This document shows, piece by piece, positions 19,248-49,278 of a stretch of DNA of 64,000 nucleotides (positions are counted from its first letter, which is position 1; the number at the start of each line of letters is the position of its first letter). A program made the position numbers and the translations under genes. Source of the stretch: Methylomonas sp. MK1 (GTDB lineage: Bacteria; Pseudomonadota; Gammaproteobacteria; Methylococcales; Methylomonadaceae). The notes under the pieces were generated by a model that made no database searches, had not been told where the DNA came from, and worked only from the letters and a program-made list of their open reading frames with translations. The stretch is from the NCBI RefSeq assembly GCF_000365425.1, contig NZ_AQOV01000001.1, positions 124,001-188,000 on the forward strand, written 5' to 3'.

Positions 19248-19457
19248 GTAAGTAATGAATGGTGGCTTTTGGGTGTATGGAAATGCACAATCGACCCTAA
19301 GCCGACAAATAAGATTAAATTGCAAGGGCAGCAAACGGGAAATAAGCTGTCCTTCAAAATGTAAGTACGATTAGCTAACGTAATCGCACATTTCAAGGCC
19401 AACACTTCTCCAATTGCTCTATCTATAATTGGAGCAGACTATCAACAACGGGTTGTC

Positions 19458-21179
19458 ATGCACCGAACTCAATCTGCAACAATCAGCAAACAATTTTATT
19501 CGTCTATCAAGAGTCCCTTGGCCAAATATCGAAACAGCTTGTGGTGGTGGCTGGTTGCTTCCTGGGTATTTCTTATTGTCATCAGCAAGAAACACGAATA
19601 CGGCAGGCTTTGGCTTCCGATTGTTTTCACATATGTGGTTGTGGCGATATTCGATAGCATTCTTAAACGCCGATTGCCCGACCACCAACCAATTGTCACA
19701 TTGGATAACGATGGCATAGAGTCTCAGCTGTTTGCCGGCGCAATTAAACGGCATAGCTGGAGTGAGTTGGTGGAAGCCAATATTTCCAAACTCAATAATT
19801 TGCCATTCATACAATTTCGATTACAAGCTATTGTAGGGGTTATTGATGACTCTATGTCCTGGACTGGTATTAACCCCGCGCGACCAGTGCTACCTATATC
19901 GTCTTTGTCTACAGAAGATCAAATCGAGTTGCTGGAAATAATCAATCAGCGTTTGGGATTCGCTCGATCAACTATAAAATCCACTGGTAATTCTAGCGTC
20001 AGTCAATCGGCCAACAATTTCGCCACTAATCCGCTAGCCGAGGAAAAAGCGTTTCATGATCAGTTGGAGGCTTATGCTCCCATAGCGTGGATCACCTGGT
20101 TGCTAATCGGTGTCAACGTATTGGTTTGGATTGCAATGTGGCATGCCGGGGCGAAAATAGAGCAAACGCCATCCGAGCAGCTACTGAGTTGGGGCGGTAA
20201 TACTGCATTTGATATTCAACGTGGCGAATGGTGGCGACTGGCAACCGCCATGTTTCTCCATGGTAGCCTGATACATTTAGGCATCAATATGGCGGGGCTA
20301 TATGTCGTTGGTGGGGTGGTGGTGGAACGCATATACGGTCATCTGCCTTTTACACTGATTTATTTAGGTTCCGGTTTGATCGGCAATGGGCTCAGCCTTT
20401 ATTTTGGTGCGCAACACGCAGTTTCCGCAGGTGCGTCCGGGGCTGTGTTAGGCGTTGCTATTGCGCTAATGATTGGTTTGTATCAACACAGGGAGCGCTT
20501 ACCAAAAATTTTTAGTAAACGAAGGTTGAGCGGCATAGTGTTGTTTGTTTTTTATGCTTTGCTCTATGGATTTACCAATCGCGGCATTGATAACGCGGCG
20601 CATATCGGCGCTATGCTAACTGGTTGCTTATTGGGTTTACTGTTGCCGGAACGCTTGGAAATGGAAAGTTTCAAACACCGCGTCAAAAAACACCTAATAA
20701 TAGGTCTGTCGTCGACGGTTGTCGCTACAACAGCTTTAGTCTCGATGTCGCCCCGGGCAACATTGAACATTAAATCAGAGCTAACAAATCAAGCCTTATT
20801 GATGCAGGGCGCGAATAGTCTGTTTCATGAACTTGTTTTACTTGATCTCGACATAGTTACTTTTCGCAGAGGCCAAATGTCCGCTGCGGAGTTGGACTCA
20901 AAGATCAAAAACACTTACCTTTCAGGCTTAAAACAAGCGATACAACAATTATCAGAAGTCAGACTAGCGGAATCGGATCAGCGATTACAGATGTTACAAG
21001 AGATGAAACTATCAACAGCTCTATTAGTATCGATCTTCGAACTCGCCCCCTTTCAAAAACCTGGAAGCGGTAAAACTCAGCCAACCGATCTTGAACGTGC
21101 AACCCTTATCAAAGACAAGTTAAAGGCAATAACAGCTCGCATATTGCATGAGAGCAAGCACTCCCTTAGGACGAAGTAG
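19458..21179 (+). CDS. Rhomboid family intramembrane serine protease
   Basis: A 573-residue membrane protein. Residues ~28-70 hold two hydrophobic segments, followed by a soluble PH-like region to ~195. A rhomboid domain spans ~205-400: WWRLATAMFLHGSLIHLGIN (His268/272, Asn277), SAGASGAVLG with nucleophile Ser327, and NAAHIGAML with catalytic His382. A ~170-residue soluble tail follows. Rhomboids cleave transmembrane segments of other proteins. Substrate unknown. The gene lies between two fragments of a helicase gene, suggesting arrival by insertion or rearrangement. Confidence 0.9.
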   Translation: MHRTQSATISKQFYSSIKSPLAKYRNSLWWWLVASWVFLIVISKKHEYGRLWLPIVFTYVVVAIFDSILKRRLPDHQPIVTLDNDGIESQLFAGAIKRHSWSELVEANISKLNNLPFIQFRLQAIVGVIDDSMSWTGINPARPVLPISSLSTEDQIELLEIINQRLGFARSTIKSTGNSSVSQSANNFATNPLAEEKAFHDQLEAYAPIAWITWLLIGVNVLVWIAMWHAGAKIEQTPSEQLLSWGGNTAFDIQRGEWWRLATAMFLHGSLIHLGINMAGLYVVGGVVVERIYGHLPFTLIYLGSGLIGNGLSLYFGAQHAVSAGASGAVLGVAIALMIGLYQHRERLPKIFSKRRLSGIVLFVFYALLYGFTNRGIDNAAHIGAMLTGCLLGLLLPERLEMESFKHRVKKHLIIGLSSTVVATTALVSMSPRATLNIKSELTNQALLMQGANSLFHELVLLDLDIVTFRRGQMSAAELDSKIKNTYLSGLKQAIQQLSEVRLAESDQRLQMLQEMKLSTALLVSIFELAPFQKPGSGKTQPTDLERATLIKDKLKAITARILHESKHSLRTK

Positions 21180-21334
21180 CCTTCGGAATCGTTCGCGACC
21201 GTTGCGGCAACACCGACTGCTTTTGGCTGGACACTTGCCATTGACGCGTTTGGCTCGTCTGATAGCTTTTGGCCGACCCAAGGCATTCAAAATTTGGCTG
21301 GGTTTGTATCGGATTTAGTGGCGGTTTGTAGATG

Positions 21335-47379: not shown

Positions 47380-47431
47380 GTTTCTGTCTGTGGAATAGAG
47401 TAATCCCATCGAATCTAAGTATGGCAATTGG

Positions 47432-47682
47432 TGTCGCTATCGCGACGGATTGTTTTAACGTCGGTTCGCGGACCGACAACCGCGACACTTTTCTTTGCTT
47501 GTCCAAAGAAAAGTATCCAAAAGAAAAGACACCCGGATTTCGCCCTGATCCTGCGCTTCACAGTTTTTTGCAGGGGTTGGCGAAAGGGGCTTCCTGCCCC
47601 TTCGCCAACGAGCGGCATCCCTGCCGCTCCCCTCACGGGCTAATCCTGCAAAAAACTGCGATGCTCGGGGTCGAAACACGGG
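47432..47682 (+). repeat. Structured repeat element, copy 1
   Basis: A ~250-base non-coding element with at least six hairpins. H1 is GTCGC-TATC-GCGAC (47433-47446). H2 is GTCGGT/ACCGAC (47460-47477). H3 is ACTTTTCTTTG/CAAAGAAAAGT (47487-47514). An outer stem of 14 perfect pairs, 47561-47574 with 47645-47658, encloses H5 (47576-47590/47596-47609) and H6 GAGCGGCA/TGCCGCTC (47610-47629), plus a small third CCC-GGG hairpin. A diverged inverted copy is present at 47840-48093. Open frames crossing it are not protein-like. Confidence 0.85.
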
Positions 47683-47709
47683 ATCAAAACCGACTCCAAA
47701 GATAAAAGT

Positions 47710-47811
47710 CCCTTCTCCCCCAGGGAGAAGGTTAGGATGAGGGAAACTCAAATAAACGTTGTAATAACCATGTATCCCCTCACCCCAGCCCTCTCCCGTG
47801 AGGAGAGGGAG
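47710..47811. repeat. Inverted pair of short CCCTCTCC-type repeats nested between the two larger copies
   Basis: One unit is at 47710-47743 (CCCTTCTCC...GGAGAAGG then GTTAGGATGAGGG). An inverted relative is at 47776-47811 (CCCCTCACCCCAG then CCCTCTCC...GGAGAGGG). Both contain a hairpin followed by a TGAGGG tail, a dispersed intergenic motif known in many proteobacteria. Confidence 0.75.
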
Positions 47812-47839
47812 CGTATATACCCCTACTACGCAGCTCCGG

Positions 47840-48093
47840 TGTTCCCCGTATGCCGCGCCGAGCACCGGAGCTTTTATCGAGATCAGCCCGAAGGGGTGCG
47901 GCAGGGATGCCGCACGTCGGCGGAGGGGCTGGGAAGCCCCTTCTGCCGACCCTCGATAAAAGCTTCGGCGCGCAGGATCAAAGCGGCATCCGGGCCGCCT
48001 TTTCTTTGGATACTTTCTTTTGGCGGAGCAAAAGAAAGTATCTCGCCTTCGGGTGCGAGTACCCGATTAAATCAAGCCGTCGCGATAGCGACA
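47840..48093 (-). repeat. Structured repeat element, copy 2 (inverted, diverged)
   Basis: The same architecture as copy 1, read on the minus strand. The terminal 17 bases (48077-48093) are the exact reverse complement of 47432-47448. H2 is CTCGC/GCGAG (48042-48059). H3 is ATACTTTCTTTTG/CAAAAGAAAGTAT (48010-48041). The outer stem has 13 perfect pairs, 47869-47881 with 47952-47964. H5 is 47916-47929/47936-47950 and H6 is GTGCGGCA/TGCCGCAC (47896-47915). Stem sequences differ from copy 1 but pairing is kept, while the H5 loop and the GCGGCATCCCTGCCGC core are shared. Confidence 0.85.
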
Positions 48094-48110
48094 CATTATG
48101 TGTCCTTCCC

Positions 48111-48392
48111 TTATTTCCATGGCTGATATAACCAGCGATCACTTTCACCAAGTTGTTTTAGCTCTCGCATAAAGGGCTCACTCTCTCTTACATAAGTAAT
48201 TGCGTCTTCATCTGAAATGAACCATTCTTTTCCATTCCACCCTACAGGACATTTTGTGGGCTTCCCTCTATGCAGGTAAATTACCCAACATACATGAACT
48301 TGAGAATTCGGAGGAAACAGACTTTGCACAATGAAGTCGTGCAACCCTACTTGGATTTTTTCACCGGGAGTTATAGCAGGATGATTATCCAT
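48111..48392 (-). CDS. Hypothetical protein
   Basis: A 93-residue soluble protein of unrecognised family. It begins MDNHPAITPGEKIQVGLHDF and has a VHVCWVIYLHRGKPTKCPVGWNG strand region and a charged helical end. Its protein-like composition and clean start argue that it is real. It stands alone between the repeat cluster and kdsB. Codon use looks somewhat more AT-rich than its neighbours, which could mean acquisition. Confidence 0.5.
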   Translation of the reverse strand: MDNHPAITPGEKIQVGLHDFIVQSLFPPNSQVHVCWVIYLHRGKPTKCPVGWNGKEWFISDEDAITYVRESEPFMRELKQLGESDRWLYQPWK

Positions 48393-48510
48393 GAACGATC
48401 ACCAAAAAATAATTAGAATGGACACCTATATGTCCCTTTTTATGGGTATTGCGAAACTTATTATCTATTTCGCATAACGAGCAAGCCGAATGAACTTGGC
48501 TGACACCCTA

Positions 48511-49278
48511 TTAGCCTTGACACAACCGTCTAGAAACTCTCACCAAATCCTCCTCCGTATCCACCCCAGCCTCCGGCGTCTTATCGACAATCTTCACCAA
48601 AACCCGCTCCCCATGCCAAAGAATCCTAAGCTGCTCCAACGACTCGACACTTTCTAACGGCGACGCATCCCAACTGCAATACCGCTGCAAAAAGCCCACC
48701 GTATAAGCATACATACCAATATGCCTGAAATGCGGCAAACCAGACGACGCGATATCGTGCTTATCAGGAAAAGTGGAACGGTTCCAGGGAATCGCCGCCC
48801 GGCTGAAATACAAGGCATACCCGTTTTTATCCAAAACCACTTTAACCGCATTCGGATTGAAGATTTCCTCCACATCCAAAATTTTCGCAGCCAACGTAGC
48901 GATGCCAGCTTGGTCTTGACCCGCCAGCGCCAGAGCCGCATCGCGAATATAAGCCGGTGGAATCAACGGTTCATCGCCTTGCAGATTGACCACGATCTGT
49001 TCGTCTGCCCAGCCCATAACCCTAGCCACTTCGGCAAGCCGTTCGGTGCCGGACTGGTGATTGGGATCGGTCATCACCGCTTGCAAACCTAAATCGCCGA
49101 CCGCGTCGAAGATACGTTGATCGTCGGTCGCCACTACCACTTGCTCGGCATCGGCTTCCAATGCGCGCTCGCAGACATGGACGATCATCGGCTTGCCGGC
49201 AATGTCCAGCAAGGGTTTACCCGGCAAGCGGGTAGAACCGTAGCGAGCCGGAATGACAACTTTAAAGCCGGCGCTCAT
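48511..49278 (-). CDS. kdsB: 3-deoxy-manno-octulosonate cytidylyltransferase
   Basis: A 255-residue CMP-Kdo synthetase: [19 protein letters not shown] (CTP binding), [19 protein letters not shown] and a C-terminal GVDTEEDL. It activates Kdo for lipid A core assembly. It overlaps the Trm112 gene by 4 bases, in the order lpxK-trm112-kdsB common in proteobacteria. Confidence 0.96.

Follow-up and report, generated by a model that had tools for sequence, protein, structure and literature searches.

Paired, folding repeats at fixed chromosomal sites of Methylomonas and the cargo that they enclose

The question raised by the locus described here is what kind of element is formed by two inverted, elaborately folding repeats: a structured RNA, the substrate of a mobile element, or a variant of some other known system. 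The locus lies in a 64-kb window of the genome of Methylomonas sp. MK1, the window being the whole stretch of DNA that was analyzed, and comprises two inverted copies of ~250 bp of one structured unit at 47431–48094. Methylomonas contains dozens of such paired folding repeats at fixed chromosomal places. The agents usually credited with bringing new genes into bacteria are phages, plasmids, insertion sequences, and integrons. In the present case, the structured ends stay in place while the genes between them, which are unrelated to one another and include relatives of known anti-phage genes, are gained and lost, with no mobility gene inside.

Architecture of the structured unit

The unit consists of ten helices, two of them being pseudoknots, and of a strand with mirror symmetry to helix H2, as expected of a triple helix. 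The helices are named H0 (the terminal hairpin), H1, PK1, H2, PK2, H3, H4, H5, H6, and H7 (Table 1). Herein, PK1 is formed by the loop of H1 and the strand after H1, and PK2 by the loop of H2 and the strand after the mirror tract. A sequence-only reading of the same stretch had described inverted copies of ~250 bases, each stem of which pairs inside its own copy, conserved cores, and an outer stem with a cloverleaf. All of this is found again: the copies are real, the GCATCCCTGC hairpin and the TATCCAAA box are both present, and H3 encloses H4, which encloses H5, H6, and H7. The perfect inverted repeat at the outer edges of the pair is likewise present, with a length of 18 bases (GTGTCGCTATCGCGACGG) rather than the 17 first read, and sits within a 28-base pair that is 93% complementary. 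The copies had been taken as strongly diverged; the measured divergence is smaller, with 76–83% identity between A and B depending on the alignment. Neither of the pseudoknots appeared in that reading, nor did the mirror strand, further copies of the unit, or the exchangeable cargo. Just inside the ends, at 47683–47842 of the window as at many cargo edges, other repeat types are found (CCCTCACCCC...CTCTCCC and GTAGGGCGCATTAGCGATAGCGTAATACGCC).

Table 1. Positions of the structural features of copies A and B and of the neighboring ORF in the window
Feature	Position	Strand	Description
Copy A, left end	47431..47682	+	Outer boundary 47431, inner boundary about 47682
A, H0 (terminal hairpin)	47433..47446	+	GTCGC-TATC-GCGAC; 98.8% paired
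A, H1	47460..47477	+	GTCGGT-TCGCGG-ACCGAC; 99.0% paired
A, PK1	47466..47485	+	Loop TCGCGG (47466–47471) with CCGCGA (47480–47485); 97.2% paired, double changes in 2 of 6 pairs
A, H2	47487..47514	+	ACTTTTCTTTG (47487–47497) with CAAAGAAAAGT (47504–47514); 99.7% paired
A, PK2	47500..47531	+	H2 loop TGTC (47500–47503) with GACA (47528–47531); 98.1% paired, double changes in 3 of 4 pairs
A, mirror strand	47519..47527	+	AAAAGAAAA; predicted third strand of a triple helix with H2
A, H3 (outer stem) enclosing H4, then H5, H6, H7	47532..47682	+	92.8–98.9% paired
Spacer of the closed A/B pair	47683..47842	.	160 bp; other repeat type inside (CCCTCACCCCAGCCCTCTCCC and its complement); no cargo gene
Copy B, right end, inverted	47843..48094	-	Outer boundary 48094, inner boundary about 47843
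B read outward, H-type pseudoknot with predicted triple helix	47994..48039	+	In order: GCCGCC (PK2), TTTTCTTT, ACTTTCTTTTG, loop, CAAAAGAAAGT
B, parts of the outward reading	48000..48007; 48012..48022; 48029..48039	+	Predicted third strand TTTTCTTT; ACTTTCTTTTG; CAAAAGAAAGT
93-aa ORF beside the A/B pair	48111..48392	-	Unrelated sequence at the same site in relatives

Compared with 20 shuffles, the whole A–B region folds with z = -20, a value dominated by the large A–B inverted repeat; the real evidence for the fold is comparative. It comes from a set of 65 ends of regular length, to which the percentages in Table 1 refer and in which the scoring splits H2 in two and counts 11 numbered helices. 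In the named structure, 96.4% of the 4,994 pair cells are formed, compared with 85.8% after shuffling and 38–47% in slid versions, over which the structure is favored because it was derived from the same sequences. Double-sided change is seen in 36 of the 79 pairs, where shuffling gives 25.2 ± 1.7. The score for covariation, 0.257, exceeds both the 0.081 ± 0.004 obtained after shuffling and the 0.051 of the highest-scoring slid version. Further pair types, the weakest measure of covariation, are reached by 22 of the 500 shuffles. A conserved fold under selection on structure is strongly supported by these numbers, in agreement with the compensatory change that had been proposed from the sequence; the many further copies that were found do covary.

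H2 is followed by a purine tract that forms the mirror image of the 3' strand of H2 in 176 of the 181 H2 regions of the genus set (direct copy in three, neither in two). Among regions with a two-base centre at other loci, a set that includes one locus of the window's genome and 12 further regions that are symmetric and uninformative, 25 of 31 follow the mirror and six follow neither rule, with no direct case. A third strand that simply copies strand 2 directly was rejected in favor of the mirror rule, as it occurs in three of the 181 regions of the genus set and in none of the 43 of the other set. The third strand also changes type in step with H2. When read outward, TTTTCTTT runs parallel to AAAAGAAA with the two PK2 strands between them, as in an H-type pseudoknot. 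A parallel third strand in an H-type pseudoknot is the classic geometry of the U.A-U / C+.G-C triple helix, and the outward fold is predicted to be an H-type pseudoknot with such a triple helix.

Variants of the unit exist as well. Extra hairpin modules are present in the ends of L138, L143, L036, L118, and L157 and in the GNAT-kdsB copy of the close relative G020. They occupy either the distal portion of H2 or the interval separating H3 from H4, and modules found in one end have relatives in others. In L052 (2092–2613), a left end is duplicated head to tail, including about 22 bp of its outer flank.

Distribution, pairing, and exchange of cargo

The window's genome contains at least 44 matches to copy A (two being pieces of one end; 40 of the 72 first-look candidates were scored), and ends occur in 33 of 37 Methylomonas genomes, its own included, with no matches in G023, G028, G030, and G034. 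Of the 369 genomes sampled from the class, 27 contain the generic core pattern, as do 23 of 272 genera (own included), and the backwards control of the pattern is absent from every row among the matches listed. At the loci of the core pattern, a PK1-type hairpin is present in 13 of 38 core regions (shuffled 0.2) and a GCATCC-type H6 hairpin in 10 of 38 (shuffled 0.0). Two of the 38 regions, each with both features, belong to the window's genome, which leaves 11 of 36 and 8 of 36 among the truly distant ones; hence, the full architecture is present in only part of the distant loci. L098 (2353–12225), from another family of the class, has two inward-facing ends with identical cores 9.8 kb apart, which flank a two-partner secretion-like locus (named by eye) with ORFs of 1,778 and 565 aa.

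No family of Rfam 15 reaches the gathering score over the A/B pair, where its covariance models give only sub-threshold matches, and a tRNA is the only match in the whole window. A known RNA family was rejected on this basis, and the sequence-only view that no known family is involved holds against Rfam. The literature search, with most subscription papers outside its reach, yielded no paper recognized as describing these ends. None of 72,556 plasmid and 50,697 phage records, a collection from which records near this genome may be missing, was matched by copy B in blastn, and a phage or plasmid as vehicle was rejected. The core pattern occurs in 29 viral contigs, four of them with the full H2 hairpin; these are perhaps host DNA.

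The loci compared are not a random sample: they surround strong matches, at 40 of the places that the genus search listed. Neighboring ends face inward in 77 of 93 cases in the larger set and in 58 of 70 in the first set. A pair was left out if the outer 60 bases at both ends equalled those of an earlier pair, whereby L261 was lost. Seventeen of the 77 inward pairs are closed, with a spacer of up to 400 bp, and 60 enclose 534–2,723 bp, the cargo being one to three accessory ORFs per open pair. Most of the 56 proteins scanned (55 cargo proteins out of 62 ORFs and the ORF of the window) have no Pfam match; the matches include PtuA, the GapS1 family, a Sll1717-type ATPase, DUF4062, NYN, DUF1152, DUF2971, and GGDEF. 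Three of the 56 are RAYT-like and one is an IS110 transposase, and no mobility gene is common to the 55 cargo proteins. The outer flanks of 58 pairs show no clear target-site duplication, the longest equal stretches being 4 bp once, 1 bp in seven pairs, and 0 in fifty. Within a unit, the left and the right end resemble each other no more than ends picked at random do.

Thirteen sites, recognized by both flanks (match of ≥150 bp, no farther than 200 bp from the end), are present in two or more genomes, with flanks that are 79–100% identical. Within their conserved ends, the cargo is replaced: the 56 cargo-to-cargo comparisons comprise 41 with different cargo (<25% of the shorter one aligned), eight with partly related cargo, and seven with the same cargo (>50% aligned). 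Further comparisons at these sites set closed pairs against cargo-bearing ones (13) or closed against closed (16). Across five genomes, one site holds four unrelated cargos; at another site, six genomes hold five. A first and smaller analysis of 49 comparisons gave 16 different, two partly related, three same, 12 closed/cargo, and 16 closed/closed cases. At orthologous sites with different cargo, the ends are about 89% identical (85–93% along their length), compared with about 80% (70–86%) for random ends, and this identity does not fall toward the cargo but stays flat up to the inner boundary. Just inside GCTCGGCGCGGCATACGGG, it collapses: the first 10 bp are 65% identical and the following 10 bp 40% (random ends 48% and 31%).

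In nine comparisons, the same cargo is found at sites that are not linked by their flanks; some cargo thus recurs elsewhere. Such shared cargo brings the inner half of the end along, with identities of 89, 86, 86, 95, 93, and 93% from outer to inner (seven ends; random 80–85%), a likeness with which the flat profile of the orthologous ends sits uneasily. In one genome, about 2.3 kb are ~100% identical at two sites in opposite orientation, with one breakpoint inside an end and the other in the cargo about 150–200 bp from the end, which looks like recombination and not like cutting at a defined terminus.

The window's own site, GNAT-kdsB, was compared in 11 genomes, in which it holds the pair (G000, G020, G024, and G025), a single end (G001, G013, G018, and G036), a fused miniature remnant (G014), or nothing (G016 and G021). 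From the right end, or the remnant, to kdsB, the DNA is mutually unrelated in the five genomes compared. The window and G020 share 57 kb, in which most long blocks are 93–96% identical and most of the A/B pair (47496–48097) is only 81% identical. Two stretches of at least 150 bp have no counterpart in G020, namely 48098–48522, beside the pair, and 19308–21218. In the latter, 1.9 kb are replaced by an unrelated 2.4 kb in G020 and no ends were detected; hence, spacers without ends vary too.

A composite flank query revealed no empty site: both flanks lie in one relative's contig in 26 cases, 0.74–3.97 kb apart, and none of the matches listed spans the junction by more than 3 bases. All 20 regions then examined (18 of the 26 and two others) hold ends, and a recent insertion of the whole unit was rejected. 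The earlier suggestion of a mobile-element substrate that is mobilized in trans stands insofar as the copies are paired ends of cargo-bearing units, with no mobility gene common to their cargo; recent movement of whole units is not seen, and it is the cargo that moves instead.

Explanations for the paired ends

The reading toward which we lean is that the units are the ends of a non-autonomous mobile family that now serve as fixed docking sites, with cargo exchanged by recombination. Each unit would be one end of a two-ended element, with ends of ~250 bp that face each other around a site that is either closed, with a short spacer, or open, with one to three accessory genes. The units may once have been dispersed by an enzyme acting in trans that recognized the folded, outward-reading strand, and cargo would now be exchanged by recombination between the ends of different sites or with incoming DNA. 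The ends could thus act as shared recombination arms and perhaps also, as hairpins, as break points. This reading draws on the covariation in ten helices, including the two pseudoknots, on the mirror strand, on the inward orientation of the ends, and on the different cargos at fixed sites, mixed in kind and some of them common to several sites. It also draws on the high identity of orthologous ends up to an inner boundary where it collapses, on the inner half of the end that travels with shared cargo, and on the 2.3 kb found at two sites of one genome. Against it stand the missing empty site, the lack of an outstanding target-site duplication, and the fact that no mobilizing enzyme was found among RAYT/Y1, TnpB, and the cargo proteins. 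Crossing-over inside the ends predicts the inner-half profile of shared cargo but not the flat profile of orthologous ends, and the gene that varies at the site of the window is located beyond the closed pair rather than in it.

A more far-reaching reading, put forward tentatively, is that of a new platform for gene exchange: docking sites fixed throughout the genome, each with two inward-facing, strand-folding ends, would trade single accessory or defense-like genes between sites and strains, with the folded single strand as the recognition signal of an enzyme. If true, the platform would be integron-like in effect but dispersed, and the outward strand of its ends would fold into a cloverleaf with two pseudoknots and a triple helix. 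If the ends drive exchange, they offer a handle on how chromosomes trade small accessory genes, a rich place for finding new defense genes, and a rare predicted triple-helix pseudoknot that is kept by covariation in a bacterial repeat. With the core motif in 23 of the 272 sampled genera, the question extends beyond methanotrophs.

Whether the molecule that folds is DNA or RNA bears on a further explanation, which is held to be rather unlikely: each end is transcribed outward and acts as a structured RNA, which might serve as a guide-like RNA or act on cargo transcripts by stabilizing or processing their 3' side. Its fold would be the H-type pseudoknot with the U.A-U / C+.G-C triple helix, the second pseudoknot, and the cloverleaf, and the parallel course of TTTTCTTT and AAAAGAAA on the outward strand, with its switching of type along with H2, is in its favor. 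So is an excess of G.U on that strand: A.C-inward (that is, G.U-outward) cells number 116 versus 39 for the reverse, or 28 versus 10 by pairs (P = 0.005), in the 78 of 116 ends kept after dropping those closer than 93% identity or with >40 gaps. Some large counts come from single lineages, so that the strand bias is suggestive; it is probably the outward-reading strand that folds. Few pairs are wobbles (0.65% when read inward and 1.9% when read outward), which speaks against RNA, though a rough control with RNase P (computed consensus, 46 pairs only) is likewise low at 2.3%. Rare wobble therefore does not rule out RNA, and the argument that it proves DNA was given up. The explanation further requires that both ends be transcribed, in opposite directions, while Rfam gives no match and the base composition flanking either boundary, with some 18 conserved bases inside and an outer edge rich in T, reveals no conserved promoter. 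Read inward, the 30 bp outside 140 ends are T/G-rich and C-poor, with 61–65% T at -4 to -2. As for a guide RNA of the TnpB/Cas12f-like omega type, this candidate was rejected, the effector (PF07282) being present in three of the 37 genus genomes and absent from that of the window.

Still less probable are passive hot spots, in which old repeats happen to lie in variable intergenic sites and cargo is swapped by homologous recombination through flanking core genes, as in the minimal mobile elements of Neisseria. The fixed sites with their 79–100% identical flanks, the mutually unrelated DNA beside the pair or remnant in five genomes at GNAT-kdsB, and the ordinary replacement without ends at 19308–21218 of the same window all fit. 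However, the cargo lies between inward-facing ends with an identity that collapses at the inner boundary, some of it has moved between sites with unrelated flanks, and the conserved folding is left unexplained. Repeated moves between sites with breakpoints inside the ends would contradict passive hot spots, and some are already seen.

It is very improbable that the ends are giant REPINs, substrates of a RAYT-type Y1 transposase, despite the inverted structured doublets and the REP-rayt-REP layout that look alike (PMC2817692) and the three of 56 scanned proteins that match the RAYT model, since the ends have no GT(A/G)G head and are ten times too long, and RAYT/Y1 was rejected as mobilizer because Y1_Tnp does not track the ends across the genus: it has no match in the end-bearing G022 (11 end matches) and G032 (8), and two and 10 matches in the complete, end-less genomes G028 and G030.

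Comparison with known systems

Paired structured repeats with cargo are rated as an already known kind, here in variant form. REPs are structured repeats of gammaproteobacteria that are kept palindromic by compensatory change and often form inverted doublets, sometimes around a gene (PMC2817692). By definition, they are hairpins of 20–40 nt with a GT(A/G)G head (PMC2817692 and PMC3733652). The ends of Methylomonas resemble the REP/BIME/REPIN systems with RAYT in their compensatory change and inverted doublets (PMC2817692). In contrast, they begin with GTGTCGC instead of a GT(A/G)G head, measure ~250 bp, contain pseudoknots, and hold cargo of differing kinds, and their occurrence does not follow that of Y1 transposases. 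MITEs, including Correia elements, are short elements in many copies with inverted ends and no transposase that are maybe mobilized in trans (PMC2649163 and PMC10969869). The 18-bp perfect outer repeat, the at least 44 matches in the genome, and the lack of a common mobility gene in 55 cargo proteins are MITE-like, whereas the lack of clear target duplications, the complete fold of ~250 bp in each end, and the exchangeable cargo at fixed sites are not.

The minimal mobile elements of Neisseria were reportedly described by Saunders and Snyder in 2002 as fixed sites between conserved genes, with different genes per strain and no mobility gene of their own. They are exchanged via homologous flanking genes after transformation. 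Conserved flanks with alternative genes inside (41 of 56 comparisons different, 13 sites) are common to both systems, but in Methylomonas each site lies between structured ends that belong to a dispersed family, and sites with unrelated flanks have cargo in common. In integrons, recombination occurs at attC sites, which fold, vary in sequence, and accompany single exchangeable genes in direct arrays beside an integrase. The ends described here share the folded, variable sites and the exchangeable single genes, yet form inverted pairs (77 of 93 inward) at dispersed sites with one cassette each. Triple-helix pseudoknots are known from telomerase and the ENE; the predicted topology of PK2 and the third strand is like theirs, with no homology claimed, whereas in Methylomonas it belongs to a bacterial repeat that may act as either DNA or RNA.
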